Shown one piece after another: positions 2,531 to 16,736 of a stretch of DNA of 33,536 nucleotides. The DNA lies in NCBI GenBank assembly GCA_001779095.1, contig MFJD01000001.1:112479-146014 (forward strand), given 5' to 3'. Within the stretch, counting starts at the first letter, position 1, and every line of letters starts with the position of its first letter. The translations under genes and the position numbers were made by a program. The stretch comes from Candidatus Gottesmanbacteria bacterium RBG_16_52_11. Lineage in GTDB: Bacteria; Patescibacteriota; Microgenomatia; UBA10105; UBA927. A model generated the notes under the pieces. The model made no database searches. It was not told the DNA's origin and saw only the letters and a list, made by a program, of their open reading frames with translations.

Positions 2531-2555
2531 AATGATCCGAAGGAGTATTGCCATT

Positions 2556-3398
2556 GTGCTGCCGGCATTTCTGATTACGCTGCGCGAGGTAATTGAAGCT
2601 ACCCTGATCGTCGCCACGATACTGGGTGTCATGACCCGGACCCGTCAGGGGAAAGGTATCCGCAGCGTATGGCTGGCGACGGCCGCCGCCGCACTCCTGA
2701 GCGTTACTCTGCTTCTTTCGGCCAGCCTGCTGGGTTTCAGGATGCACGAAATATTTTCCGGCCCGACTGAGGCTATTACCGAAGGCAGCCTGATGGTGAT
2801 TTCCGCCTTATTCATCACCTGGGCGGTTTTTTTCCTGCACCGGCACTTTGCCCGGTACAAAACCAGGCTTCTGGTGAAACTTACGGAAACAGTTGAACGG
2901 CAGGAGTCGCGGGGTATTTTCTGGCTGACCTTCACTGCAGTACTGCGTGAAGGATTCGAAATCGTATTGTTTCTCTCGACAATATATCTTTCCGGCGAGC
3001 CGCGGCAGGTGTTCGCCGGTTTTGCCGGCGGAACCGCCGCGGGACTTCTGTTATCATTTGCCCTGTTTACGGCGACTTTCAGAATGCCGGTATATTATGC
3101 ATTCCGCGTCACCAGCGGATTACTGATACTTTTTGCGGCCGGGCTTCTGGCCCGCGGTATCCGTGAGTTTTCCGGACTCGGACTGATACCTGAGACCGGT
3201 CGGTTGACCCTGCCCCTGGCACCTGCCAATTCGACATTTGCCGGGGATATGGTGAAAGCGCTTTTCGGAATTTCCAGGCAAATGGATTACCTGCAGCTGG
3301 GAGTGTATTTGGCATACGTTGCCGTTATGGTCTGGTGGGTATTTTTCCGGCACAACCGGACCGCCCCGGAAACGGAAGTGTCTGCCGCGCCGGAATAG
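2556..3398 (+). CDS. FTR1 family iron permease
   Basis: This 280-residue polytopic membrane protein resembles the FTR1/EfeU iron permeases. Two RExxE iron-binding motifs are visible, REVIE in the first helix and REGFE in the fourth-helix region, and about seven hydrophobic helices are present. FTR1 proteins move ferric iron that has been oxidised by a partner. The GTG at 2556 is chosen as the start because it follows AAGGAG (2540-2545) at a suitable distance, it gives the usual family N-terminus (LPAFLITLRE), and the promoter places transcription start after the upstream ATG at 2532. A cupredoxin gene 1.25 kb downstream could supply an oxidase partner. No EfeO-type M75 domain or EfeB peroxidase is present in the window. 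Confidence 0.9.
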   Translation: MLPAFLITLREVIEATLIVATILGVMTRTRQGKGIRSVWLATAAAALLSVTLLLSASLLGFRMHEIFSGPTEAITEGSLMVISALFITWAVFFLHRHFARYKTRLLVKLTETVERQESRGIFWLTFTAVLREGFEIVLFLSTIYLSGEPRQVFAGFAGGTAAGLLLSFALFTATFRMPVYYAFRVTSGLLILFAAGLLARGIREFSGLGLIPETGRLTLPLAPANSTFAGDMVKALFGISRQMDYLQLGVYLAYVAVMVWWVFFRHNRTAPETEVSAAPE

Positions 3399-3490: not shown

Positions 3491-4579
3491 ATGTACCGCT
3501 TTGGGAAACGGATACCAAAATTAGTGCTGGCTGTTTTAATGATCGCGGGTTTTGCCGGCCTGTTGTTTTTCGGTGCCGGTCGACTTCACTTAGGACCGCG
3601 GTCTCCGGGCTCCGGCGGTTCCGGGGACACCGTCGAAACCAATCAGGGCGGTCCGGTTGAACCGCTCCATCCGCTTTCCATTGAATACATGCGGCAGCAG
3701 GAGTACCCGGGAAGCGAAATCATAACGGAGCAGACACTGCCGCCGGGATCAAATTACCGGCGCTACATCGTTTCTTACCGGTCAGATGGCCTGAAAATTT
3801 ATGCACTGCTGACCGTACCGAACGGCAATCCACCGGCCGGAGGCTGGCCGGTAATTGTATTCAACCACGGGTATATTCCGCCTGCCGAATACCGGACTAC
3901 CGAACGGTACAGTGCATATACGGACGCGTTTTCCCGCAGCGGCTATATACTGATCCGGCCGGATTACCGCGGCCACGGCAATTCCGAAGGCAATCCCGAG
4001 GGTGCTTACTACTCGCCGGCATATACGGTCGATGTGCTCAACGCCGTTTCATCGATTAAAAGATATCCCGGCGCAGATTCTTCCCGGATCGGGATGTGGG
4101 GACACTCGATGGGCGGCAGCATTACACTTCGTTCCATGGTGGTCAATCCGGATATCAAAGCCGGTGTCATCTGGGCCGGGGTGGTTGCCTCCTATGATGA
4201 CCTGGTAAAAAACTGGCGCCGTCCGGGTTCAAAGCCATGGCAACCATCCCAGCGTGAACAAGCTATCCGCCGGCCCAGCCGGCAGATGCTGGTTGACCAA
4301 TACGGGGATACCGATGCCAATCCGCAGTTCTGGAATTCGATATCGCCCATATCATTTGTACCGGATATTTCCGGACCGGTGCAGATCCATCACGGGGACG
4401 CCGACAGCAGCGTACCGATACTGTTCAGCCAGCGGCTGCAGGATGCGCTGACCGCTGCCGGAAATACCAGTGAACTTTACACGTATCCGGGTGATGACCA
4501 TAACCTGTCGGCAAATTTAAGTACCGCACTCAGCCGGTCGGTACGGTTCTTTGACACTTATCTGAAGGCTTCGGAATGA
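3491..4579 (+). CDS. Exported or membrane-anchored alpha/beta hydrolase (S9-like)
   Basis: The 362-residue protein begins with a basic stretch and a hydrophobic segment (about residues 10-30), then a Gly/Ser-rich linker, so the enzyme probably sits outside the cell, anchored or released. The hydrolase fold shows FNHGY (oxyanion region), RPDYRGHGNSEG, the nucleophile elbow GHSMGGS with Ser near residue 206, an acidic residue in HHGDADSSVP near 303 and the catalytic His in DDHN near 337. These define a serine hydrolase of the prolyl oligopeptidase/dienelactone hydrolase type; the substrate (peptide or ester) cannot be read from sequence. There is no Shine-Dalgarno, and the upstream 11-bp-pitch repeats suggest control by the neighbouring response regulator. 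Confidence 0.87.
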   Translation: MYRFGKRIPKLVLAVLMIAGFAGLLFFGAGRLHLGPRSPGSGGSGDTVETNQGGPVEPLHPLSIEYMRQQEYPGSEIITEQTLPPGSNYRRYIVSYRSDGLKIYALLTVPNGNPPAGGWPVIVFNHGYIPPAEYRTTERYSAYTDAFSRSGYILIRPDYRGHGNSEGNPEGAYYSPAYTVDVLNAVSSIKRYPGADSSRIGMWGHSMGGSITLRSMVVNPDIKAGVIWAGVVASYDDLVKNWRRPGSKPWQPSQREQAIRRPSRQMLVDQYGDTDANPQFWNSISPISFVPDISGPVQIHHGDADSSVPILFSQRLQDALTAAGNTSELYTYPGDDHNLSANLSTALSRSVRFFDTYLKASE

Positions 4580-4650
4580 GACGGAATTTCCCGTCAGTAT
4601 TGTTTTATTCGGATATTGACATAGTTTCTGTCTGAAAGGAGGTGATTCAT

Positions 4651-5181
4651 ATGGATGAGATTCAAACCGGAAGCAGCGGCATCAGTATGCCGGCGGTTGT
4701 ATTGGGAGTTGTAGCCGTAATTGCCCTGATCGGATTGGGGATTATGTTTACCCGGGGTACGTCTCCCGCGGTCAATCCTCAGGATGATAATGCCATTATG
4801 GTAAGGGAAGGGGAGCCGTCACCCGCCGTAACCACGACTGACGGATCGGATCGGTCCGGTGCGGCAGTAAATCCGACGGGTACGGATACCATGACGGAAG
4901 AACAGGGTGTAAACGTAGAGGTCGAAGCAGGCAGCTTTTACTACAAACCTAACGTCATCCGGGCAAAGATCGGGGTACCGGTGACTATTGTTCTTACGGC
5001 CGCAGATGCGATGCACGATTTCAACATTGACGAGCTGGACGTTTCGATACCGGTTACCAAATCCGGCAGTTCTTCGACAGTCACCTTTACCCCTGACCGG
5101 ACCGGTGAATTCGAGTACTACTGTTCGGTCGGCCAGCACCGCCAGAACGGGCAGGTCGGCAAGCTGATAGTCGGAGAATAA
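4651..5181 (+). CDS. Membrane-anchored cupredoxin-domain protein
   Basis: This is a 176-residue protein with a single N-terminal membrane segment (about residues 14-35), a low-complexity linker and a C-terminal cupredoxin fold (about 88-176). Copper ligands are visible: His122 (MHDF), Cys158 and His163. The C-x4-H-x4 spacing then leads to Gln168 where most relatives have Met, the arrangement of the Gln axial ligand in plant stellacyanins. The ATG at 4651 is chosen because a very strong Shine-Dalgarno (AAGGAGGTGAT) ends just upstream; that element overlaps the in-frame GTG at 4642. Likely roles are extracytoplasmic electron transfer, or Fe(II)/Cu handling with the nearby FTR1 permease. A terminator follows. 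Confidence 0.87.
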   Translation: MDEIQTGSSGISMPAVVLGVVAVIALIGLGIMFTRGTSPAVNPQDDNAIMVREGEPSPAVTTTDGSDRSGAAVNPTGTDTMTEEQGVNVEVEAGSFYYKPNVIRAKIGVPVTIVLTAADAMHDFNIDELDVSIPVTKSGSSSTVTFTPDRTGEFEYYCSVGQHRQNGQVGKLIVGE

Positions 5182-5207
5182 CCTGCAGTTAATAATCCGC
5201 ATACCCG

Positions 5208-5236
5208 CCCTCCCGGCCGGAGGGTTGGTTTTTTTG
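5208..5236 (+). terminator. Rho-independent terminator after the cupredoxin gene
   Basis: CCCTCC (5208-5213) pairs with GGAGGG (5219-5224) and is followed by TTGG and seven T residues. It separates the cupredoxin gene from the two-component operon. Confidence 0.8.
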
Positions 5237-5274: not shown

Positions 5275-5283
5275 ATGGCCCTG

Positions 5284-5970
5284 ATGAGGGTACTAGTCAT
5301 TGAAGACGAACATAAAATCGCCAATTCGATCCGCCGGGGTCTGGAGCTGGAATCGTACGCGGTTGACGTTGCGTATGACGGGATTGAAGGGTATGACCTG
5401 GCAGCCTCGGAAACATATGACGTCATTATCCTTGACCTCATGCTACCGGGAATGGACGGATTGACTATTACGCGCAAACTCCGCGACGGAGGAATCCATA
5501 TTCCGGTTCTCATACTGACAGCTAAAGGCGCACTGGACGAAAAGGTAGCAGGACTCAATACCGGAGCTGACGATTATCTGGTCAAACCGTTCGCTTTTGC
5601 AGAACTTGTCGCCCGGGTCCGGGCTTTGGCGCGCAGGCCGCGTAACGGCAATAATACCGCACTGACTTATGCCGGAGTGACCCTTGATCCGGTCAGCTTC
5701 ACCGTAACCCGTGACCGTAAGCCGGTAATGCTTTCCCGGAAGGAGTTTGCCCTCCTTGAATTTCTCCTGCGCCACCCGGACACCGTTCTGACGAAAGACC
5801 AGATTACCAGTAACGTCTGGAGTTACGATTCGGACATTCTGCCCAATACAGTTGAGGTCTATATCGGATATCTCCGCCGGAAGATCGATAAGCCGTTCAG
5901 TACAAAAAAGCCGCTAATCAGGACGGTCCGCGGCTTCGGATATAAGCTAAGCGACGGGAAAAGACTATGA
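5284..5970 (+). CDS. OmpR/PhoB family response regulator
   Basis: The 228-residue regulator has a receiver domain (about residues 1-115) with the acidic pair in VIEDE, phosphoacceptor Asp51 (ILDLMLPG), a conserved Thr (LTAKG) and Lys (VKPF). A C-terminal winged-helix DNA-binding domain follows (about 128-225), including SRKEFALLEFL and the RTVRGFGYKL ending typical of the family. The start at 5284 gives the canonical MRVLVIEDE; an in-frame ATG at 5275 abuts the TATAAT and would probably lie outside the transcript. The gene overlaps the sensor kinase by four bases (ATGA). It is the obvious candidate to bind the 11-bp-pitch repeats found at four nearby promoters. Confidence 0.95.
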   Translation: MRVLVIEDEHKIANSIRRGLELESYAVDVAYDGIEGYDLAASETYDVIILDLMLPGMDGLTITRKLRDGGIHIPVLILTAKGALDEKVAGLNTGADDYLVKPFAFAELVARVRALARRPRNGNNTALTYAGVTLDPVSFTVTRDRKPVMLSRKEFALLEFLLRHPDTVLTKDQITSNVWSYDSDILPNTVEVYIGYLRRKIDKPFSTKKPLIRTVRGFGYKLSDGKRL

Positions 5971-7019
5971 CAATATTCCGGTCCGCAAGGCTCAAGCTGA
6001 CCGCCTGGTACCTCCTGATCATCATGGCGGTGAGCCTTCTCTTCAGCGGAATCGTCTACCGGATTATGACGCAGGAACTCCGGAGGGGATTCGGACTGCA
6101 GATACTCAGGCAGATGCCGCATGATATCCGGGAGGAGTACCTGGAGAAAGTCCGGGAACAGGCAATACCGTTGCCTTTCCGCGGGCTGGCAGTGCCGGTT
6201 GCCATCGATGAGGAACTTTTCAGCGAAATCAGGCGGCGGATCGCGGTAAACCTGGGACTGGTCAATCTGGGCATCCTCGGGTTATCCGGGATTGCTTCAT
6301 ACTTCTTGGCCGGCCGGACGCTGCGGCCGATCGAAGATATGGTGGATGCACAAAAGCGTTTCATCGCCGATGCTTCACACGAAATGAGGACACCATTGAC
6401 GTCGATCAAATCGGAAATCGAGGTTGCCCTGCGCCAGAAAGCACTGACATCCCGGCAGGCAAGGTCAGTCCTGAGGAGCAATCTTGAAGAAGTCGGTAAG
6501 ATGCAGGGATTTACCGATTACCTGCTGACACTCAGCAAGTACGAGACCGGGGAGATATCTCTGCCGGTCGAACCGGTAAATCTCCGCACTTCTGTGGAGG
6601 AAGCCGTCAGGCGTCAAAGACAGCACATCCGGAACCGCGATATAACCGTCAATACCCAGACCCCGGACGTATATGTAAAGGCCAATCCGGAAAGCCTGAC
6701 GGAACTGGTTACCATCCTTCTGGATAATGCCGTCAAATACAGTCCTGAAGGATCAGCCGTAAACATCAGGATCAGCAGGGGCCGGTCAGCCGCCAGATTG
6801 GAAGTGAAGGATCGGGGACAGGGGATTAAGGCTTCCGACGTGCCGTATATTTTCAACCGGTTCTACCGGGCGGATACTTCCCGCAGCAAACACTCTGCTG
6901 ACGGATACGGTCTGGGACTGTCCATCGCCAAATCGATTGCAGGAATGTACCGCGGTGACATCGCTGTCAGGAGTACTCCGGGCAAGGGCAGCACCTTCAC
7001 CGTCTCGCTCCCTGTCTGA
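5967..7019 (+). CDS. Membrane sensor histidine kinase
   Basis: The kinase has 350 residues. Two membrane segments (about 10-30 and 96-114) flank a short extracytoplasmic sensor of about 65 residues. After a short linker (LRPIEDMVDAQ, with no full HAMP domain) comes the HisKA dimerisation domain with His138 in ASHEMRTP. The ATPase domain shows the N box (LLDNAVKYSPEG), the G1 box (VKDRGQGI), the F box region (IFNRFYR) and the G2 box (YGLGLSIAK). It phosphorylates the regulator encoded just upstream, with which it is translationally coupled. The stimulus is unknown; the target genes suggest envelope stress, metals or toxic compounds. Confidence 0.95.
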   Translation: MTIFRSARLKLTAWYLLIIMAVSLLFSGIVYRIMTQELRRGFGLQILRQMPHDIREEYLEKVREQAIPLPFRGLAVPVAIDEELFSEIRRRIAVNLGLVNLGILGLSGIASYFLAGRTLRPIEDMVDAQKRFIADASHEMRTPLTSIKSEIEVALRQKALTSRQARSVLRSNLEEVGKMQGFTDYLLTLSKYETGEISLPVEPVNLRTSVEEAVRRQRQHIRNRDITVNTQTPDVYVKANPESLTELVTILLDNAVKYSPEGSAVNIRISRGRSAARLEVKDRGQGIKASDVPYIFNRFYRADTSRSKHSADGYGLGLSIAKSIAGMYRGDIAVRSTPGKGSTFTVSLPV

Positions 7020-7072: not shown

Positions 7073-7561
7073 ATGATGAATAAGAAATTAATTGTCGGAC
7101 TTGGTGCGTTAACCGTTGCGGGAATAGCCTTTCTGTATACCGGCCGGACCGTATCGGCGGCAGATCAGACATATCCGCCGATTGTGGAGCGGCTGGCACA
7201 GAGGTTCGGCTTGAATATCAGCGATGTCCGGAAGGTATTTGATGACGAACGGAGTGCCCGTCAGGTGCAGATGCGGACGCAGCTGCAGCAGAGACTCGAC
7301 AGTGCCGTATCTGCCGGAACTATAACGGAAGCGCAGAAGTCGGCAATACTTACCAAGCATGACGAAATGAAGTCGGACATGGAGAACTGGCGCAGCCTTT
7401 CGGAGGAAGAGCGGATACAGAAGATGGAGGAACGCAGAAACGGAATGGAAGACTGGATGAAAGCCAATAACCTGTCAATTGACGTATTACGGCAGATTGG
7501 GTTTGGGCATCGGGGTTTCGGATTCGGTCCCGGAAATCACGCCGGTTTCGGACTGAAATAA
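7073..7561 (+). CDS. Small secreted helical protein (DUF2680/Spy-like)
   Basis: The 162-residue protein has a signal peptide (about residues 1-30, cleavage after VSA or AAD) and a charged helical body with two repeated elements: LAQRFGLNISDVRKVF and the AVSAGTITEAQKSAIL segment, a pattern seen in DUF2680 proteins. The tail is rich in Gly, Phe and His (GHRGFGFGPGNHAGFG). Function is not established. By position and general character it resembles small extracytoplasmic stress proteins such as Spy that accompany two-component systems, but homology to Spy is not claimed. The Shine-Dalgarno AAAGGGGGTG precedes two adjacent ATG codons (7073 and 7076). A strong terminator follows, so it is probably monocistronic and controlled by the 11-bp repeat. 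Confidence 0.75.
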   Translation: MMNKKLIVGLGALTVAGIAFLYTGRTVSAADQTYPPIVERLAQRFGLNISDVRKVFDDERSARQVQMRTQLQQRLDSAVSAGTITEAQKSAILTKHDEMKSDMENWRSLSEEERIQKMEERRNGMEDWMKANNLSIDVLRQIGFGHRGFGFGPGNHAGFGLK

Positions 7562-7579
7562 ACCTTTGAGCACATTATC

Positions 7580-7620
7580 AACAGGAAAATGGTCCCCCGA
7601 TCAGGGGACTTTTTCCTGTT
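7580..7620 (+). terminator. Strong extended terminator hairpin
   Basis: The core stem GTCCCC/GGGGAC (7592-7597 with 7604-7609) is followed by TTTTT. Flanking A-rich and T-rich arms (7580-7589 and 7610-7620) extend the pairing, so it may work in both directions. It closes the small secreted protein gene. Confidence 0.85.
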
Positions 7621-7641
7621 AATCGGGGGAACGCAGCGGTA

Positions 7642-7672
7642 TCAGGTATTTCTCAGGTTCACGGCGTAAACT
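7642..7672 (+). promoter_or_regulatory. Direct repeat and -10 upstream of the MacA operon
   Basis: TCAGG occurs at 7642-7646 and at 7653-7657, an 11-base pitch. A weak -10 (around GTAAAC, 7666-7671) follows in a GGCGTA context like that of the two-component promoter. Transcription would start about at the ATG (7679), which has no Shine-Dalgarno. A weak -10 next to a regulator site suggests activator dependence. Confidence 0.5.
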
Positions 7673-7678
7673 TTGTTT

Positions 7679-8977
7679 ATGAAATTATCAGACAGAACAA
7701 CCGGTTGGGTCCGGAAGCACAGGGTAGCTGCAATCCTGATTGCCGTCATTATCACCACCGGAATAGTTTTCACTGTCCGGTCGCGCACAGGCCGACCGTC
7801 AGTTCAGGTAACCACGCAGGCGGCTGAACCGGGGACGGTGGTTTCTTCGGTTACGGCGTCCGGGTCAATACTGACTTCCAACCTGGTTAATGTATCCACA
7901 TCCGTTAACGGCATCATCAGGGAAGTGTATGTTCATGACGGGGACAGTGTGGTTGCCGGCCAGAAAATCATGGAAATTACCCCGGACACCGCGTCCGCGC
8001 AGAATTCCCAGGCGGCATATGCCTCATATCTGTCAGCTAAATCAAGCCTTGATGCTGCTAAAGTCAGTCTCTATACACTGCAGTCTGATATGCTTACCAA
8101 ATGGCAGGAATTCAGGGAATTGGCCGAAAGTGACAGTTATGAAAATCCTGACGGTTCACCGAAAAGTACGGAGCGGACACTGCCCCAGTTCATGACGGTA
8201 CAGGATGACTGGCTGGCTGCTGAAGCGACCTACAAGAATCAGCAGGGGAAGATCGCCCAGGCACAGGCTGCGTTGTCCGGTGCCTGGCTTGCGTTTCAGG
8301 CCGCCTCAACGGTGGTGACGGCGCCGATGTCCGGTACGGTAACAAATATTACCTATACCCCGGGCATGACCATAGCCGGATCGGGTTCATCGGGCACCGG
8401 AACTTCCACCACTACATCAACTAACCGGGTAGCTGTGATTACTTCGGCCGGGTTACCTCTGGCATCTTTTACGGTATCGGAAATCGATGTTCCCGATATC
8501 AAACCCGGTCAGAAAGTTACCCTTACCCTGGATGCAGTCAGCGGTAAATCGTTTACCGGTAAAGTCATGACAGTCGACCGGATCGGATCGGTATCCAGCG
8601 GTGTGACGACATATCCGGTAGTCGTATCATTTGACACGACTGCCGAAGACATCCTGCCCAACATGGCAGCGACAGCCAATATCATCCTGGATTCGAAGAC
8701 GGACGTGCTGAAAATTCCTTCCTCGGCAATATCCGGCGAAGGCGACCAGAAGACGGTTCGGGTGAAGAAGGGTAATAATATCAGCACTGTTTCCGTAGTA
8801 ACCGGGCTATCGTCCGACACAGATACCGAAATAATTGAAGGGCTTTCCGAGGGAGATGAAGTTGTCGTATCCACACAGACCAGCGGACAATCCCAGTCCG
8901 GCAGCAGCGTATTCGGCGGTTTCGGAGGCGGAGGGTTTATCAGGACCGGCGGTTTCTCCGGATCCCAGAGACGCTGA
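7679..8977 (+). CDS. MacA-like periplasmic adaptor (HlyD family) of an ABC efflux system
   Basis: The 432-residue adaptor has an N-terminal anchor (about residues 16-33). The first half of a lipoyl-like domain follows (TSVNGIIREVYVHDGDSV), then a helical hairpin rich in Ala, Gln and Lys, the second lipoyl half (VTAPMSGTVTNI), and beta-barrel and membrane-proximal domains (FTVSEIDVPDIKPGQKV). The C-terminus is Gly/Phe-rich. Adaptors of this type join a MacB-type ABC exporter and, in single-membraned cells, act as an extracytoplasmic collar rather than reaching an outer-membrane channel. ATG at 7679 is preferred to the upstream TTG at 7673 because the predicted transcript begins near 7679. It heads a tight operon with the ATPase and permease. 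Confidence 0.9.
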   Translation: MKLSDRTTGWVRKHRVAAILIAVIITTGIVFTVRSRTGRPSVQVTTQAAEPGTVVSSVTASGSILTSNLVNVSTSVNGIIREVYVHDGDSVVAGQKIMEITPDTASAQNSQAAYASYLSAKSSLDAAKVSLYTLQSDMLTKWQEFRELAESDSYENPDGSPKSTERTLPQFMTVQDDWLAAEATYKNQQGKIAQAQAALSGAWLAFQAASTVVTAPMSGTVTNITYTPGMTIAGSGSSGTGTSTTTSTNRVAVITSAGLPLASFTVSEIDVPDIKPGQKVTLTLDAVSGKSFTGKVMTVDRIGSVSSGVTTYPVVVSFDTTAEDILPNMAATANIILDSKTDVLKIPSSAISGEGDQKTVRVKKGNNISTVSVVTGLSSDTDTEIIEGLSEGDEVVVSTQTSGQSQSGSSVFGGFGGGGFIRTGGFSGSQRR

Positions 8978-8991
8978 TATCCCTCTCCGTT

Positions 8992-9702
8992 ATGATTAAA
9001 GTTACGCATATCTCCAAAGTGTACGCCACCGATTCGGTGGAAACCTTAGCTTTGGATGACGTCTCTTTCGAAATTACCGCCGGTGAGTTTGTGGCGATCA
9101 TGGGACCTTCAGGCAGCGGCAAATCGACCCTGATGCATATTCTGGGAGCGCTTGATGTGCCCTCCCGCGGAACTTACATGCTTGAGGGTGCAGATGTCGG
9201 CAGTCTGGATGATGATGCGCTGGCAGACATCCGGAACCGGAAAATCGGATTCATATTCCAGTCGTATAATCTGCTGCCGCGTACGAGTGCCGTCAAAAAC
9301 GTGATGCTGCCGATGTATTATGCCGGCATACCGAAGGCAAAGCGGTATGAAAAGGCAGCCGGGCTTCTTGGGAAGGTAGGCCTGTCCGACCGTATGCACC
9401 ATACGGGCAGCCAGCTGTCCGGCGGTCAGCAGCAGCGCGTGGCTATCGCCCGGGCACTGGCGATGGATCCGGCAATTCTTTTAGCTGACGAACCCACGGG
9501 TAATATCGCATCCGTGCAGGCGGAGGAGATTATGTCGATATTTCAGGATCTCAACAATGCCGGTCACACCATAATTATGATTACCCATGAGTCCGATATT
9601 GCCGAACATGCCGGGCGGATAATCTATCTGAAAGACGGGAGAATTGTCCGCGACGGAAACTGTCACCGGAGGAGAACCGTAAAGACCGGAGTGAAAAGTT
9701 AA
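8992..9702 (+). CDS. MacB/LolD-type ABC transporter ATP-binding protein
   Basis: The 236-residue ATPase has the Walker A motif GPSGSGKST (about residue 39), a Q-loop (FIFQSYNLLP), the ABC signature LSGGQQQRVAIARAL, the Walker B motif ILLADEPTGN and the switch His in MITHE. It energises the permease encoded 15 bases downstream. The residue after the Walker B region reads GNIAS where most members have GNLDS, so the usual D-loop Asp is Ala; this may be a lineage trait rather than damage, because every other motif is intact. The C-terminal tail is basic. It follows the adaptor gene by 14 bases, so it is co-transcribed. Confidence 0.95.
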   Translation: MIKVTHISKVYATDSVETLALDDVSFEITAGEFVAIMGPSGSGKSTLMHILGALDVPSRGTYMLEGADVGSLDDDALADIRNRKIGFIFQSYNLLPRTSAVKNVMLPMYYAGIPKAKRYEKAAGLLGKVGLSDRMHHTGSQLSGGQQQRVAIARALAMDPAILLADEPTGNIASVQAEEIMSIFQDLNNAGHTIIMITHESDIAEHAGRIIYLKDGRIVRDGNCHRRRTVKTGVKS

Positions 9703-9717
9703 CAACCGGGGAAAATT

Positions 9718-10941
9718 ATGGAATATTCGGAAATAGTCACTGATGCGCTGGGTAATCTGACCGTAAACAAAATGCGGACCGGACTGGCGGTTCTGGGCAT
9801 AATCATCGGAATCGGAAGCGTGATTGCCCTGGTATCGCTGGGTCAGGGAAGTCAGAAAGCAGTAACTGCGCAGATTCAGTCCCTGGGATCCAACCTTCTG
9901 ACGGTCGTTCCCTCAGGCGGCCAGTCCGGCGGCGTCCGGCAGGCGGCCGGCAGCGGTACCAACCTGACCTCCGCCGATGCCGAGGCGATATTGAATTCGC
10001 CCGCTGTCACGACGGTTAAGAACGTTTCTCCGGAATATACCGACCGGATCCAGGTAACAGCCGGTAGGAACAATACCAATACCATGGTACTGGGTGTCAC
10101 TCCGCAGTACTTGGAAGTCCGCAAAACGGAGCTGTCTTCTGGGACTTTCATTACCGCGCGGGATAATGAGGCGCAGGCCAAAGTAGCGGTACTGGGACCG
10201 CAGGCAGTCACCGACCTTTTCGGAGAGGGAGCTGCTGCCGTCGGCCAGTCAGTCCGTATCAACGGTCAGGCGATGCGGGTCATCGGCGTCACCACAAGCC
10301 GAGGAGGTTCGGGCTTCCAGAATCAGGATGACCGGATATATGTACCTCTGTCGACAGCCCAGAAACTGTTATTCGGTACCAATTATGTGAATCAGATTGC
10401 GGTTGAGGCAAACAGTGAAGATGTGATGACGCAGGCACAGGATGAAATCGGGTACCTCCTGCTGGCCCGGCACCGCCTGAGCGATCCGTCGCAGGCGGAT
10501 TTCTTCATTATGTCCCAAAACGATATCTTAAATACGGCTTCGTCCGTCACCGGAACTTTTACGGCGCTTTTGTCCGGCATCGCAGCCATTTCGCTGGTCG
10601 TCGGGGGCATCGGCATCATGAATATCATGTTGGTGACGGTCACGGAAAGGACCCGGGAAATCGGCCTCCGGAAAGCACTGGGCGCCAGGAAACGCCATAT
10701 CATTACCCAGTTTCTGCTGGAGTCCGTGATTCTCACGGCTGTCGGCGGGACTTTCGGTATCGCCTTCGGCATTGCCGTATCTTACATAATAGCCAGAGTC
10801 ATCAGTATGCCGTTCACGATTGCCGTTTCATCGGTGGCATTGGCAATCGGGGTATCCGGGGGAATCGGTATCATATTCGGCTGGTATCCCGCCCGCCTGG
10901 CTTCGAACCTGCAGCCGATTGAAGCCTTGCGGTACGAATAA
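9718..10941 (+). CDS. MacB-like ABC transporter permease (FtsX family)
   Basis: The 407-residue permease has one N-terminal helix (about residues 20-45, preceded by the LTVNKMRTGLAVLGIIIG pattern). A large extracytoplasmic domain follows (about 50-275) and then three C-terminal helices that include GGIGIMNIMLVTVTERTREIGLRKALGA split over the coupling region. This is the MacB core plus FtsX architecture with the ATPase on a separate polypeptide. Such systems export peptides, antibiotics or lipoproteins, or move substrates by mechanotransmission. With the preceding two genes it forms a complete tripartite-like exporter. A start at 9718 fits the 15-base gap after the ATPase, although no strong ribosome site is visible. 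Confidence 0.93.
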   Translation: MEYSEIVTDALGNLTVNKMRTGLAVLGIIIGIGSVIALVSLGQGSQKAVTAQIQSLGSNLLTVVPSGGQSGGVRQAAGSGTNLTSADAEAILNSPAVTTVKNVSPEYTDRIQVTAGRNNTNTMVLGVTPQYLEVRKTELSSGTFITARDNEAQAKVAVLGPQAVTDLFGEGAAAVGQSVRINGQAMRVIGVTTSRGGSGFQNQDDRIYVPLSTAQKLLFGTNYVNQIAVEANSEDVMTQAQDEIGYLLLARHRLSDPSQADFFIMSQNDILNTASSVTGTFTALLSGIAAISLVVGGIGIMNIMLVTVTERTREIGLRKALGARKRHIITQFLLESVILTAVGGTFGIAFGIAVSYIIARVISMPFTIAVSSVALAIGVSGGIGIIFGWYPARLASNLQPIEALRYE

Positions 10942-11012
10942 TTCCGTAATAACCGATAGCGCAGGCACTATTGTAAATAATTCGTAAATCATGCATGTTT
11001 GGAGGTGATTTA

Positions 11013-11432
11013 ATGAAAAATAAGATTATTTTAGTTATCGTTGCACTTCTGGCTGCGGCGGGCGGTTTCTTCGGCGGTATGAAATACCAGGAAAGCCGCA
11101 GACCGGAGTTTTTCCGTCAGTCAGGCAATATGCAGCCGGGCCGCAACGGCAGGTCAAGCCAGTTCCGAAGCGGCAGCGGTTTCCGTCCGGTCGCCGGCGA
11201 GGTGATCAATTATGACGGCACTACGCTTACGGTGAAGCTGGCGGACGGATCCGGCAGAAACGTACTTCTGTCGGGTAAAACGGAAATATCGGCCACAGCC
11301 ACGGCATCCGCCGGTGATATCCGGCTCGGTTCAAGGATTGCGGCGTTCGGAACCGAGAACTCTGACGGCAGCATCACCGCCCAGAACATCCAGATTAATC
11401 CGGCTGCGGGCATGCGCCCGGCCGGCCAGTAA
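11013..11432 (+). CDS. Small anchored protein with a DUF5666-like domain
   Basis: The 139-residue protein has an N-terminal hydrophobic anchor (about residues 3-22), an Arg/Gly/Ser-rich linker and a small beta-rich domain (about 55-130) with VAGEVINYDGTTLTV and LGSRIAAFG, which resembles DUF5666 (predicted OB-like). The start at 11013 is chosen because GGAGGTGATTTA lies immediately upstream; the in-frame ATG at 10995 precedes that ribosome site. It sits 71 bases after the permease and before a terminator, so it may be the last gene of the efflux operon. It could be an accessory or sensing subunit of the exporter; this is inferred from position only. Confidence 0.75.
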   Translation: MKNKIILVIVALLAAAGGFFGGMKYQESRRPEFFRQSGNMQPGRNGRSSQFRSGSGFRPVAGEVINYDGTTLTVKLADGSGRNVLLSGKTEISATATASAGDIRLGSRIAAFGTENSDGSITAQNIQINPAAGMRPAGQ

Positions 11433-11515: not shown

Positions 11516-14500
11516 TCACCCCGCCACCAGGTCCTCCCCCACGTATCCGACGACTCCCTCAACCGGGGTCTCCCGGGGCACGGAGCTGATTATCTGCCCG
11601 GCGGGGTCGGCATAAGCTGCCGTCACCAGGTAGTGTCCCCGGGTAACCAGGAAAGCGTAGCGTCCCAGCCGGTCGGTGTAGGTGAGCTGCTGCCCGGGGG
11701 GAAACTTCCGGGTGAGGGTGACAGCAGCTCCCCGGATGGGCCGGTGCCGGCTGTTAAGTACCACTCCGAAGGGCTGGGTCCGCCGCCTGATGCGCGACAG
11801 GATCAGGATCCCGGCATACACCGTGACAATCAGGGTATTGACGGTGGTCGGGGTAACCAGAAGGGCCAGAACGCTGAAGACAAACCCGATCGTGTAGAGG
11901 AGGCCGGAGAGGCGGAGCACCAGGCTTTCCACTCCGGCGAACCGGCCGATGCCCATCCTCAGCTTCTCGGCTTCATTGAAAGGCAGCTCACCCAGGCGGT
12001 CCAGGGGAATGTTAAGTGCCACCGCGGCGGGGCCGGTGAGGGAGAAGGCATCCCCGTAGTAGAGGTCGCTGTAGAGGGAGGCGGCAGCTGAGGGGCCTTT
12101 CCGGGAGGGGAAAGCATACCCGGTCTTGACCACGTCCAGGGTATAGTCTCCCCCCTCAGCCAGGAACTGGTACCTCCCGTACAGGTCGGTGATCTGCTGC
12201 CTGACCCCGGAGCTCCCCCGCAGCGTCACGATCGCCGGGTCCAGGGGGATGTGGGCTTGTGAGTCAAACACCACTCCCCAGGGGTAGCGCTTCTTTCGAA
12301 GTAACCCCATCAGAATCCCCAGCAGGTTAACCGGCGTGAAGCGGATATGGGGAACTAGCGGAATAATCGGGGGGAATGCCAAGACCAGAACCGCGCTCCC
12401 CGGAGCCGCCAGGCCGATTAGTGACAGGGTCCGGGTGGTCCGGTCCAGGACCGGTTCCGGGCGCCGGGGAGCAGGTGGGACTTCGGTATCCCCGGTGGCG
12501 GTGGTGGCAAACTCGTGCCGGGCGTCATAGGCGTGGGTTTTCCCCTGCGACTGGACTTCGTAGAAGTAGGTGGTGGAAGGAGACAGTCCGGTGAGAAGAA
12601 CCGCGTGTCCGGTGACCCTGCCGATGACCTGGTAGTCCCGGCCGTAGTCGGGGGAAGTCCCGATACTCACCTTGGAAGAAGCCGGGTGGTTGGTGGTCCA
12701 GGTCACCAGGGCATAGGTGTCCCCGATTTGAGTCACCGAAAGCCCCGATATCACCGTCGGGTTAGGGTCAAACCAGGCAACGACGGCACCGGCCAGCTCA
12801 GTAAAAGCCTCAGTTATCAGGTCCACGATGCCGGTTATCAAATCAGTGGCAGTAGTTGACGGGGGCACCCCGGTCGGGACGGGGGTGGGAATTGCTGTGG
12901 GAAAGGGTGTGGGAAGGACAGGCTCCGAAGGCGGAGCCGGAACCGGCGGCAGGATCTTTTTGATGGCCTGGCTTCCTTCCGGAAAAGCCCGGGTGGTGCC
13001 TGATACCTCAGGCGACCAGAATCCGGGGGCGCAGCCTTTCTGGGAGCGGACGGAAAAGTAGTAGGTGGTGCCGGGGGACAGGTCCCCCACGGTCACTTTC
13101 TTCTGATCGGGGGAGATTCCCATCACGGAGTAAGGGTAGACTCCGGCCGATGTGCCGTACGCAAGCACCATGGAGTCAAAGCTTTCGGAAGGAGGTGACA
13201 GGGACACTTCCAGGGAGAAGTGGCCTTTTTCCTTCACTTCCGTGATCAGGGGAGTCGCGTACGTGGGAGAGTCGGAGCAGGTGGGGGCGACAGCTCCGGC
13301 TACTGATCCGGAGGAGGACGAAGGGGCGGTAGTCGGAGTGGGTGTCGGGGTGGATGTGGCTCCCGGAGTGGGAGAAGGGGTGGGAGTAGGAGTGGGAGTA
13401 GGAGTAACCGAAGCATCCAGATTTATCCTCACCCTGCCTTCAAACGCATTGTATTCCGGCCAGATAACCAGCGGGGTACCGTTTTCCACCAATTTCAGTC
13501 CGGCCGGATGGTTGACTTCGGGGATAAGATATATCTTAGATGCAGTTGCTGTATTGGTGCGGTTTTTGGCAAGCCGGATCCTGACGTAATAATACGAACT
13601 ACCCTCGCCGTTGACGCTGGTGGTAGCCCAATTGTCGGGCGGGATAAACTGGACTTCCATGTCGGTACCGATAATAACCATTGTTGCGTCGGTGGCTTCA
13701 TTTACAGTCGGAAGCATCTCCCAGGAAATCCCGTTCCAATATTCCCAGTAGACCGGCAGACCGTATCCGGGATAACCCCCGTTGGTTGTCATGTCAGCCA
13801 CAATATAGTCGAATTTCCGGGAACTTCCTACGTAGACAATGTCACCTGAACTGGCCATAAGCGGCACATCCGAGGCTGTATTGTTGTTGGCATCGGTCGT
13901 TTCATCGGTATAAACTCCTGAAATATACGTCCAGACCTGATCCGGTTTTCCGTCGTATCCGTATGGGTATTCGGAAGCTGAGAAATCACTGCTTCCGTAA
14001 GGCGCCACACCTTTACGGTAAGCCAGCGTGCCGGCTATATAAAATGAGGATGTATGATCGGTGGGGTCCTCGCCGATGACCCAGACATCGGATCCGTCCG
14101 ACATGATATCCACATAATGCCCGCAGTTGGCGCAGGCGGCAAAGATTTCCGAGGGAGAGGACCAGATCGAACCGTTATAATACGAAAACAATACGTTTTC
14201 ATTGGAGGCATCGGTCCAGGTGAGGAATATCTGACCGCCTGTGGTACCGGTAGCTGAATAAACCCCAGCCCAGGAATCGTTGTAAACTGTCGAAGGTGTA
14301 ATCTGGGTAGCGCCGTTCCAACCGGTTAACGGATCGCCGTCGGTCCGCGATCGGAAGTAAAGATTCAGGTCTTCATCATAGTAGATGTAACCGATTTTAT
14401 CACCACCGTATCTGACCAGATTTCCGGTGTGCGGCCCGTCGGTTCCTCCCGGTGTGTCAACCGGGGATAAAGATACGTTAACCGACGGATTGTCGCTTAA

Positions 14501-16720
14501 GCCGTCAGAATAATAGATGCCGTTCCGGTGGTCGACGCCGTAATCCTGGGCATCCCTTAGTGACAGCCAGAATCTGGATGTGCCTTCGATGAGTATTCGG
14601 GCTGTATCATAACTTGTATCGGCACTGACTGAATCCAGTAGCGTCCGTTCGCTTCCGATCGTCCAGTCCGAACCGGTATACGTAAGTTTGCGGTAAAGTA
14701 TATCGCCGTCAGTACCATATCCTGCCAACACGTTACTATAGACCACATATATGTTGTCACTTGTGTCGGTAGCAGCTGTAGCATACAGGTCATGATTACC
14801 GGAAAACTGGGATCGGCAGGTCCAGGTTGTGCCTCCGTCACTTGACATCAGCCAGACTAATCCGCCGACGTAACTGCCGCCGCAACTGAGATTAGCATAT
14901 GCGCTTTGCATAAAAGTATGCAGCGTTCCGTCCGAAGTTTTTATCAGCCGTTCACCCTGCATGCCAAGTAACGAATCGCCGCCGTTGGCTGTATACGTCA
15001 TTACTGCCGGTGAAATTTCACTGACTGAGGGCGGGTCGTTATAGTCGGGACTGACCGTCACCGAACTGGCCCGGATCCGGTATGTGGAGGCGGCTCCCTC
15101 GGTCCAGACGACGTAGAATTTGCCGGCCGGGGACGGCTTGGCGTTCATGGTCATAAACGGCGTCGGAGCCAGCGGCGCTACCTGGGTACCGACCGGGGTA
15201 GTGGTATAGGCACCGGTGGCCCTGGCCCTGATGTAGTAAAACGGTGTTCCTTCTCCGTTAATCTGGGTCGTTCCCCAGTCGGTCGGTTCGGTGAATGTGG
15301 CATATCCGTCTACCCGGAAGTTGCTGGCATTGGCACTGGTCTGAGAGAGGAAGGTAAGAGTTGACCAGTCGGCGATATCCGAATCATAATACTCCCAGGT
15401 GACCGTACCCACCGTGCCGTTGGTGGACAGGTCCCAGGCCACGGCATCGAATTTGTCCGTGCTGCCGAAATAAGCGATATCCCCGACGCCGGTGACCATT
15501 CTGGTGTCGGCAGTAGTCGTATTTGACCCGTCCGAAGTGTCATCGAGGTATCCTCCGGAAACGTAGCTCCAGTATTGGTCAAAAGTCCCGTACGACGGAG
15601 TCAGTTCCGGCGTTTCCTCGGTGTAGTTGAAGCGGTACCCGGGATCGATGACTTTCAGGATCCTGGTCTGGTAATTGGCGGTCCCGGCAAGACCCGTACT
15701 GAAACCCTCGGTGTTGTTGTGGGCTATCCACGCGGTGTTGTTATCCACGCCGATACCGATTCCCGTCAGGGCTTCGTTGAAAGTCGAGATGTTGAAATTA
15801 TTGCCACCGTACCAGATGTTGTGATGGAATTTCGCATATGAAGCGGAAATACCTGAAGCGGCGATAGCATACAACTCACCGTAGGAATTACCGGCCACCG
15901 ACCACTGGCTATTGGTTGCGCTCAGAAACGCATATGTTTTGGCCTGCCATTCGTCGAGATCCTGCGAGTCGCTGCGGTGCCGGAAATAAACGAAACTGGA
16001 CGAATTGCTGTAAAGGACACCTATATAGGACCCGAACCGGACTACGGCCGGGACGTTATAACTGGCTGAAGAGCTGGTTCCGTCCGGATCCAGGTTCGCC
16101 TGTGATAAGGACCATGAAGGTGCCGTGCCCAGTCCGTCCGAATAATATACATTGACCTGGTATTGTGTTCCGGTATAGTAGCGTGTAGCCAGCCAGATCC
16201 GGGTTGTCCCCTCAAGGTCAATTGTTGAGTAGGTATAGGCGTCTGCAGCAGTTGCGTCCAGGACCGTCTGCTCGCTTTCGAGAGTCCAGTTGCTGCCAGC
16301 ACCTTTGGTGAGTTTGCGGTAGTAGATATCATATGCGGCGCTGGCGCCGGAACCGGTGGTGGAATAAACGACGTAGATGTTATCCGAAGAATCCGTAACG
16401 GCTGATGAGTAAAACTGGTTCGACGTATCGGAAGACAGCTGTCCCCGGCAGGTCCAGGTGGCGCCACCATCCGTGGAGTTAAACCACAGAAGTCCGCTTA
16501 AGGGACTACCGCCGCAGGTGGCGGTTTCGGTTCCCAGCTGCAGAAACGCATGGACGGTTTCGTCGGAGGTGACGACCAGGTGCCGCTGGTTGGCTGTCCC
16601 TGCGGCATTGTTAACTGAAGTCGTACCGATGACTGCCGGAGCAGCGGCAGCCGGGCCGGTAAATATAAGTCCGGATACGACAACAAATAGTGCGGTCAGC
16701 AGATGCCGCATATGTTTCAT
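11516..16720 (-). CDS. Giant modular surface protein: Asp-box repeats, Pro/Thr linker, FN3 and carboxypeptidase-regulatory domains
   Basis: This protein of about 1734 residues has a signal peptide (about 1-27, ending AAAAP). Two similar modules of about 530 residues follow (about 30-560 and 565-1100). Each begins with a sialidase-type Asp-box segment (STDGGATW, SSDGGTTW) and ends in a beta-rich part with the motif VNGEG or INGEG. A Pro/Thr/Ser linker follows (about 1100-1135), then two fibronectin III-like domains (conserved LSPGTTYYF and LSPSTTYFYEV) around a second Pro-rich linker. The C-terminal third has a hydrophobic segment, a carboxypeptidase-regulatory-like domain (TDLYGRYQFL), a hydrophobic pair and a second such domain (TDRLGRYAFL). 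It is probably a cell-surface adhesion or glycan-binding protein; no catalytic site is claimed. ATG at 16720 is chosen because a TATAAT at 16731-16736 overlaps the upstream ATG at 16732. Confidence 0.85.
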   Translation of the reverse strand: MKHMRHLLTALFVVVSGLIFTGPAAAAPAVIGTTSVNNAAGTANQRHLVVTSDETVHAFLQLGTETATCGGSPLSGLLWFNSTDGGATWTCRGQLSSDTSNQFYSSAVTDSSDNIYVVYSTTGSGASAAYDIYYRKLTKGAGSNWTLESEQTVLDATAADAYTYSTIDLEGTTRIWLATRYYTGTQYQVNVYYSDGLGTAPSWSLSQANLDPDGTSSSASYNVPAVVRFGSYIGVLYSNSSSFVYFRHRSDSQDLDEWQAKTYAFLSATNSQWSVAGNSYGELYAIAASGISASYAKFHHNIWYGGNNFNISTFNEALTGIGIGVDNNTAWIAHNNTEGFSTGLAGTANYQTRILKVIDPGYRFNYTEETPELTPSYGTFDQYWSYVSGGYLDDTSDGSNTTTADTRMVTGVGDIAYFGSTDKFDAVAWDLSTNGTVGTVTWEYYDSDIADWSTLTFLSQTSANASNFRVDGYATFTEPTDWGTTQINGEGTPFYYIRARATGAYTTTPVGTQVAPLAPTPFMTMNAKPSPAGKFYVVWTEGAASTYRIRASSVTVSPDYNDPPSVSEISPAVMTYTANGGDSLLGMQGERLIKTSDGTLHTFMQSAYANLSCGGSYVGGLVWLMSSDGGTTWTCRSQFSGNHDLYATAATDTSDNIYVVYSNVLAGYGTDGDILYRKLTYTGSDWTIGSERTLLDSVSADTSYDTARILIEGTSRFWLSLRDAQDYGVDHRNGIYYSDGLSDNPSVNVSLSPVDTPGGTDGPHTGNLVRYGGDKIGYIYYDEDLNLYFRSRTDGDPLTGWNGATQITPSTVYNDSWAGVYSATGTTGGQIFLTWTDASNENVLFSYYNGSIWSSPSEIFAACANCGHYVDIMSDGSDVWVIGEDPTDHTSSFYIAGTLAYRKGVAPYGSSDFSASEYPYGYDGKPDQVWTYISGVYTDETTDANNNTASDVPLMASSGDIVYVGSSRKFDYIVADMTTNGGYPGYGLPVYWEYWNGISWEMLPTVNEATDATMVIIGTDMEVQFIPPDNWATTSVNGEGSSYYYVRIRLAKNRTNTATASKIYLIPEVNHPAGLKLVENGTPLVIWPEYNAFEGRVRINLDASVTPTPTPTPTPSPTPGATSTPTPTPTTAPSSSSGSVAGAVAPTCSDSPTYATPLITEVKEKGHFSLEVSLSPPSESFDSMVLAYGTSAGVYPYSVMGISPDQKKVTVGDLSPGTTYYFSVRSQKGCAPGFWSPEVSGTTRAFPEGSQAIKKILPPVPAPPSEPVLPTPFPTAIPTPVPTGVPPSTTATDLITGIVDLITEAFTELAGAVVAWFDPNPTVISGLSVTQIGDTYALVTWTTNHPASSKVSIGTSPDYGRDYQVIGRVTGHAVLLTGLSPSTTYFYEVQSQGKTHAYDARHEFATTATGDTEVPPAPRRPEPVLDRTTRTLSLIGLAAPGSAVLVLAFPPIIPLVPHIRFTPVNLLGILMGLLRKKRYPWGVVFDSQAHIPLDPAIVTLRGSSGVRQQITDLYGRYQFLAEGGDYTLDVVKTGYAFPSRKGPSAAASLYSDLYYGDAFSLTGPAAVALNIPLDRLGELPFNEAEKLRMGIGRFAGVESLVLRLSGLLYTIGFVFSVLALLVTPTTVNTLIVTVYAGILILSRIRRRTQPFGVVLNSRHRPIRGAAVTLTRKFPPGQQLTYTDRLGRYAFLVTRGHYLVTAAYADPAGQIISSVPRETPVEGVVGYVGEDLVAG
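13326..13420 (-). repeat. Pro/Thr-coding low-complexity tandem repeat
   Basis: Near-perfect hexameric repeats (GTGGGA, GTAGGA and variants as read on the plus strand) encode a PTPTP-type linker inside the giant surface protein. It separates the duplicated N-terminal modules from the fibronectin III part and marks a change in base composition. Length variation between strains would be expected. Confidence 0.8.
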
Positions 16721-16730
16721 GATCACCCGC

Positions 16731-16736
16731 ATTATA
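16731..16736 (-). promoter_or_regulatory. -10 element of the giant surface protein gene
   Basis: A perfect TATAAT on the reverse strand ends 10 bases before the ATG at 16720. Predicted transcription starts about four bases before that ATG, which decides between the two candidate starts. Confidence 0.5.

Follow-up and report, generated by a model that had tools for sequence, protein, structure and literature searches.

An inherited axial glutamine in a clade of predicted membrane-anchored bacterial cupredoxins

The stretch of DNA analyzed here, hereafter the window, comprises 33,536 nucleotides of Candidatus Gottesmanbacteria bacterium RBG_16_52_11, a member of the Patescibacteriota (assembly GCA_001779095.1, contig MFJD01000001.1, positions 112,479 to 146,014 of the forward strand). 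A membrane-anchored cupredoxin is encoded on the plus strand at 4651..5181 (176 aa plus stop), and its homologs start at the matching place. Read directly from the sequence, a near-perfect, strong Shine-Dalgarno element, AAAGGAGGTGA, occupies 4635..4645 (+). An in-frame GTG at 4642 would lengthen the protein, but it falls inside this ribosome-binding site; the ATG at 4651 is therefore the likely start. Since the start is this ATG behind AAAGGAGGTGA, the numbering H122/C158/H163/Q168 used below is correct. Directly 3' of the gene lies an intrinsic terminator (5207..5236, +), a 7-pair stem followed by a T run.

The neighboring genes are of mixed character. Directly upstream is an alpha/beta hydrolase with an N-terminal membrane segment (3491..4579, +; assigned by Pfam), and on its far side, 1.2 kb upstream of the cupredoxin, an FTR1-family iron permease (2532..3398, +; PF03239, 99.8 bits). 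Downstream are an OmpR-type response regulator and a histidine kinase (5275..7019, +), followed by a small exported protein (7073-7561, no Pfam family), an HlyD/ABC/MacB exporter and a DUF5666-like protein, which together span 7073..11429 (+) and belong to an island found in part in several relatives. Parts of this island recur around the relatives with the order changed. A ZIP-type metal transporter (ZupT-like) is encoded at 130-1026, so that metal transport genes flank the region. On the minus strand, positions 11516-16732 encode an exported protein of 1738 aa, which is large for a 1.5-Mb genome.

The cupredoxin consists of a short N-terminus, a single transmembrane helix predicted from sequence (4684..4752, +), a flexible linker rich in Ser, Thr, Pro and Asp, and one cupredoxin domain (4903..5178, +), a layout shared by its Gln-clade homologs (see below). 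AlphaFold2, supplied with 85 natural sequences and modeling no metal, predicts a Greek-key cupredoxin fold with confidence (mean pLDDT 96.4, pTM 0.86). Pfam model PF13473 (Cupredoxin_1) matches at 40.4 bits against a cutoff of 27, and it likewise matches 20 of the 20 Gln-clade members scanned. The nearest fold in the PDB is 4hcf, a copper-bound but uncharacterized Cupredoxin_1 protein of Bacillus anthracis (Z 16.0, rmsd 1.0, 33% identity). Next comes the N-terminal cupredoxin domain of the Hyphomicrobium denitrificans nitrite reductase, HdNIR (2dv6, 6tfd; Z 15.2, rmsd 1.2), which is also the best PDB profile match, with the loop CSIAGHRQAGMEG against CSVGQHRQNGQVG in the window protein. The HdNIR domain, however, has Met rather than Gln in the axial position and is fused to a nitrite reductase that is missing from the window's genome.

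The metal loop of the window protein reads EYYC-SVGQ-H-RQNG-Q-VGKLIV, with the spacing C-x4-H-x4-Q. His122 (codon CAC, 5014..5016, +) and His163 (5137..5139, +) are invariant in 85 aligned sequences, as is Cys158 (5122..5124, +), the sole Cys of the protein. The axial position is Gln168 (CAG, 5152..5154, +), which aligns with the axial Met found both in the N-terminal domain of HdNIR and in Met-type homologs; in a profile of the Gln clade, its partner is the Met of CSIAGHRQAGMEG. A prior sequence-only reading of the window had described the loop as C158-x4-H163-x4-Q168 with all other ligands intact, His122 included, and both codons and numbering agree with this. The residues of a type-1 copper site are thus well supported, and the copper they would bind is presumed. 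Gln168 is well supported by alignment as the putative axial ligand. A nearby Met acting as ligand in its stead, the case that would have counted against the original proposal, is rejected, as no Met near the site is invariant in the Gln clade. Three clade members carry Ile or Gln where the others have the Met that precedes the first His.

Plant stellacyanins and umecyanin have an axial Gln and the spacing C-x4-H-x4-Q. The window protein shares the axial Gln, as judged by alignment, but stellacyanins and umecyanin belong to the phytocyanin family and have a disulfide, whereas the only Cys of the window protein is the ligand. A Pfam scan with the phytocyanin model (Cu_bind_like) gave no match in the window protein up to an E-value of 0.01. 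The description of the protein as stellacyanin-like therefore holds for the metal site and, by sequence, not for membership in the phytocyanins. A different view of the site would have Gln168 packed beside a three-coordinate (or water-ligated) copper, with properties near those of a laccase-like site that has no axial ligand. The structural model contains no metal, and Gln ligation is read from sequence, which leaves room for such an arrangement; we consider it very unlikely, given that the Gln is invariant in its clade, has the spacing of the stellacyanins and aligns with the HdNIR Met.

To place the Gln among its relatives, homologs were gathered at the levels of the window's family, order and class, as well as from a genome collection. 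The axial column of 115 distinct domains contains 92 Met, 22 Gln and 1 His, in keeping with the statement that most relatives have Met at this position. Twenty-one of the Gln sequences group together in a single clade (support 98/90) that is nested among Met sequences. Within it, Gln is found in 21 of 21 members and varies no more than the three other ligands do, at identities to the window protein down to 54%, which answers the question of Gln conservation raised with the original proposal. Because the Gln is kept without exception throughout this 21-member branch, the exchange is real and under selection; a sequencing or alignment artifact is rejected, since the Gln recurs in 21 related proteins. 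Conversion of Met to Gln takes a minimum of two base changes (ATG to CAA or CAG). When the tree was rebuilt by a quicker method without the axial column, the Gln sequences still clustered, but three changes were needed versus two. A single origin of the clade is accordingly likely but not proven. In this part of the family, Gln took the place of an ancestral Met, probably once, and the descendants have retained it.

The remaining Gln sequence of the tree (L141) lies apart from the clade. A phylum-wide search returned two more Gln sequences from outside the window's class, one of them clade-like (L188) and the other (L197) carrying a Met three residues past the second His. By sequence, L141 and L197 look like independent cases of axial Gln, with that of L197 being probable. 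In the open-access literature, we found no naturally occurring bacterial cupredoxin with an axial Gln, although published cases may exist elsewhere. On these alignments, the axial Gln is real and has been inherited within a clade of bacterial cupredoxins, which are thus a variant on a known kind of protein and not a new kind.

Exchange of axial Met for Gln is a textbook means of tuning blue copper proteins, and most of the known examples are plant proteins or engineered mutants. Stellacyanin, with its axial Gln, has a potential of 265 mV versus 375 mV for plastocyanin, and the M148Q mutation lowers that of rusticyanin from 667 mV to 563 mV (PMC11881046). From these values, the lowered potential expected in the sequence-only reading is a reasoned prediction for the Gln clade: the Cu(II)/Cu(I) potential should lie about 100 mV below that of the same protein with Met. 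Because the absolute potential varies with what surrounds the site, no absolute value is predictable.

Candidate redox partners were sought by family searches. COX1, cytochrome bd and multicopper oxidase domains were not found in the window's genome, which is 92% complete, nor were NirK-type domains. A role as carrier to an aa3 or bd oxidase, or as donor to NirK or a multicopper oxidase, is rejected for this genome, because an enzyme of these families is not there to be fed. COX1 is no more common in genomes with the cupredoxin than in those without. Single-domain 'pcy' cupredoxins from the same phylum, with the same architecture and a suggested role as electron carriers, have been proposed to deliver electrons to NirK (PMC12931201), the partner that is absent here.

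The FTR1 permease in the window bears on the suggestion that the protein oxidizes Fe(II). Across genomes, FTR1 occurs in 31 of 104 with the cupredoxin versus 21 of 270 others (30% vs 8%, p about 2e-7, uncontrolled for genome size), and three FTR1-cupredoxin pairs lie within 2.5 kb versus 0.2 expected. The permease gene stands beside the cupredoxin in the window and, among the loci compared, at 1 of the 20 with Gln and 2 of the 84 with Met. In Brucella, the gene for the single-domain cupredoxin FtrB accompanies that for an FTR1-type permease. The structure of FtrB (8vuk) matches the predicted fold at Z 13.3, and it oxidizes Fe(II), but its copper site differs, being of the Cup-II type with Asp118 and His121 (PMC11966278). 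By analogy to the pairing proposed for FtrB and FtrC, the window protein could be a ferroxidase partner of FTR1 that oxidizes Fe(II) for uptake. FTR1 is, however, as frequent with one type as with the other (6 of 19 Gln genomes, 25 of 85 Met genomes) and is absent from 13 of the 19 Gln genomes. In the window, the alpha/beta hydrolase gene intervenes between the two. A lower potential would moreover make Fe(II) oxidation less favorable, not more. This ferroxidase role is therefore judged unlikely; iron oxidation finds backing at the level of the family, where FTR1 is nearby and co-occurs, whereas as a role specific to the Gln type it is unsupported.

A second association involves a PQQ-type quinoprotein sugar dehydrogenase (PF07995; nearest solved relative, 3a9g). 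Counting strong matches sorted by hand, this family is present in 45 of 104 cupredoxin genomes versus 65 of 270 others, with 11 of 19 Gln genomes and 34 of 85 Met genomes containing it. Comparison of these 19 and 85 genomes reveals no specificity for the Gln type in the association with either FTR1 or the sugar dehydrogenase. Six dehydrogenase-cupredoxin pairs lie within 2.5 kb versus 0.3 expected. Four of them share one family code and the other two a second, and PF07995 was chosen after the neighbors had been seen, so that the nominal p of 1e-6 makes the adjacency look stronger than it is. For both partners, the adjacency tests are post hoc in design and include several related genomes. The dehydrogenase gene is directly upstream of a Gln-type cupredoxin at L093:9679-11427 (gap of 42 bp) and of a Met-type one at L107:8239-9872 (8 bp), each pair being a likely operon. 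In the window's own genome, the dehydrogenase is about 190 kb away from the cupredoxin. In marine Thaumarchaeota, blue copper proteins have been proposed to receive electrons from PQQ dehydrogenases (PMC7300363).

Other neighbors were tallied as raw counts, which ignore relatedness and the number of families inspected. An alpha/beta hydrolase is found within 8 genes of the cupredoxin at 7 of 20 Gln loci versus 8 of 84 Met loci, MacB within the same distance at 5 of 20 versus 7 of 84, and the small exported protein nearby at 4 of 20 versus 1 of 84. Among the Gln loci compared, no partner was found to be conserved beside most members.

The main rival to a redox role is copper buffering, in which a copper-tolerance cupredoxin resembling CopI would, on the outer side of the membrane, capture Cu(I)/Cu(II) under metal-responsive two-component control, with Gln favoring retention of Cu(II) over redox cycling. 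The best NCBIfam matches do point this way, with CopI for the cupredoxin and TIGR01387 (cztR/silR/copR) for the regulator next door. Both, however, score below their cutoffs, CopI very far so, at 30 bits versus 280 for model NF051440. CopI of Rubrivivax gelatinosus is likewise an extracytoplasmic single-domain cupredoxin, and makes a useful non-respiratory model, but it has an axial Met, a green type-1.5 site and segments rich in His and Met (PMC13308877), the last of which the window protein lacks. The regulator adjoins the cupredoxin in few relatives, and in the window the terminator at 5207-5236 separates the two genes, which weakens the case for an operon. Fusions of DsbD_2 to a cupredoxin, of the type associated with copper handling, are encoded no more than three genes away from the Gln member at both L096 and L100, and at none of the Met loci, and HMA-DsbD_2-cupredoxin proteins are encoded in the window's genome. 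Copper buffering is on balance rather unlikely; the handling of Cu(I)/Cu(II) put forward in the sequence-only reading draws on a few neighboring genes and is otherwise weak. The DsbD_2-cupredoxin fusions of the window's genome, at L004:1045-2919 (C1; the one with an HMA domain) and L002:754-1818 (C4), end in CxMGMYxG in place of a type-1 site and probably function in copper handling.

The best explanation overall is that the protein serves as a cell-surface relay for single electrons, and as a whole, comprising the site, ligation by Gln and the relay itself, we give it an even chance of being right. One N-terminal helix would hold the single-domain type-1 copper protein on the outer face of the membrane, with His122, Cys158 and His163 binding copper in a plane and the side-chain oxygen of Gln168 presumably in the axial position. 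The relay would take electrons from an extracytoplasmic donor, in the service of oxidations at the cell surface, the two best candidates being Fe(II) destined for the FTR1 permease and the PQQ-type sugar dehydrogenase. Because the genome has no known oxidase, the acceptor is expected to be extracellular or to belong to a partner cell. It is quite doubtful that, beyond this, a lineage of Patescibacteria has evolved a low-potential carrier of the stellacyanin type by which, having no respiratory oxidase, it disposes of electrons from the sugar dehydrogenase or from Fe(II).

The clade bears on the use of copper in bacteria with tiny genomes and no respiratory oxidase. A bacterial clade in which Gln is fixed, together with sister clades in which Met is fixed, offers matched natural pairs for measuring the effect of the axial ligand. 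Such pairs are supplied by three genomes (G214, G282 and G150) that encode both Gln and Met proteins. A third residue at this position, His, is seen in related cupredoxins at L040:4986-5264 and L042:5001-5165 (CSKPGHRKNGHWG and CSMPGHRANGHWG), one of which comes from an SR1 genome.
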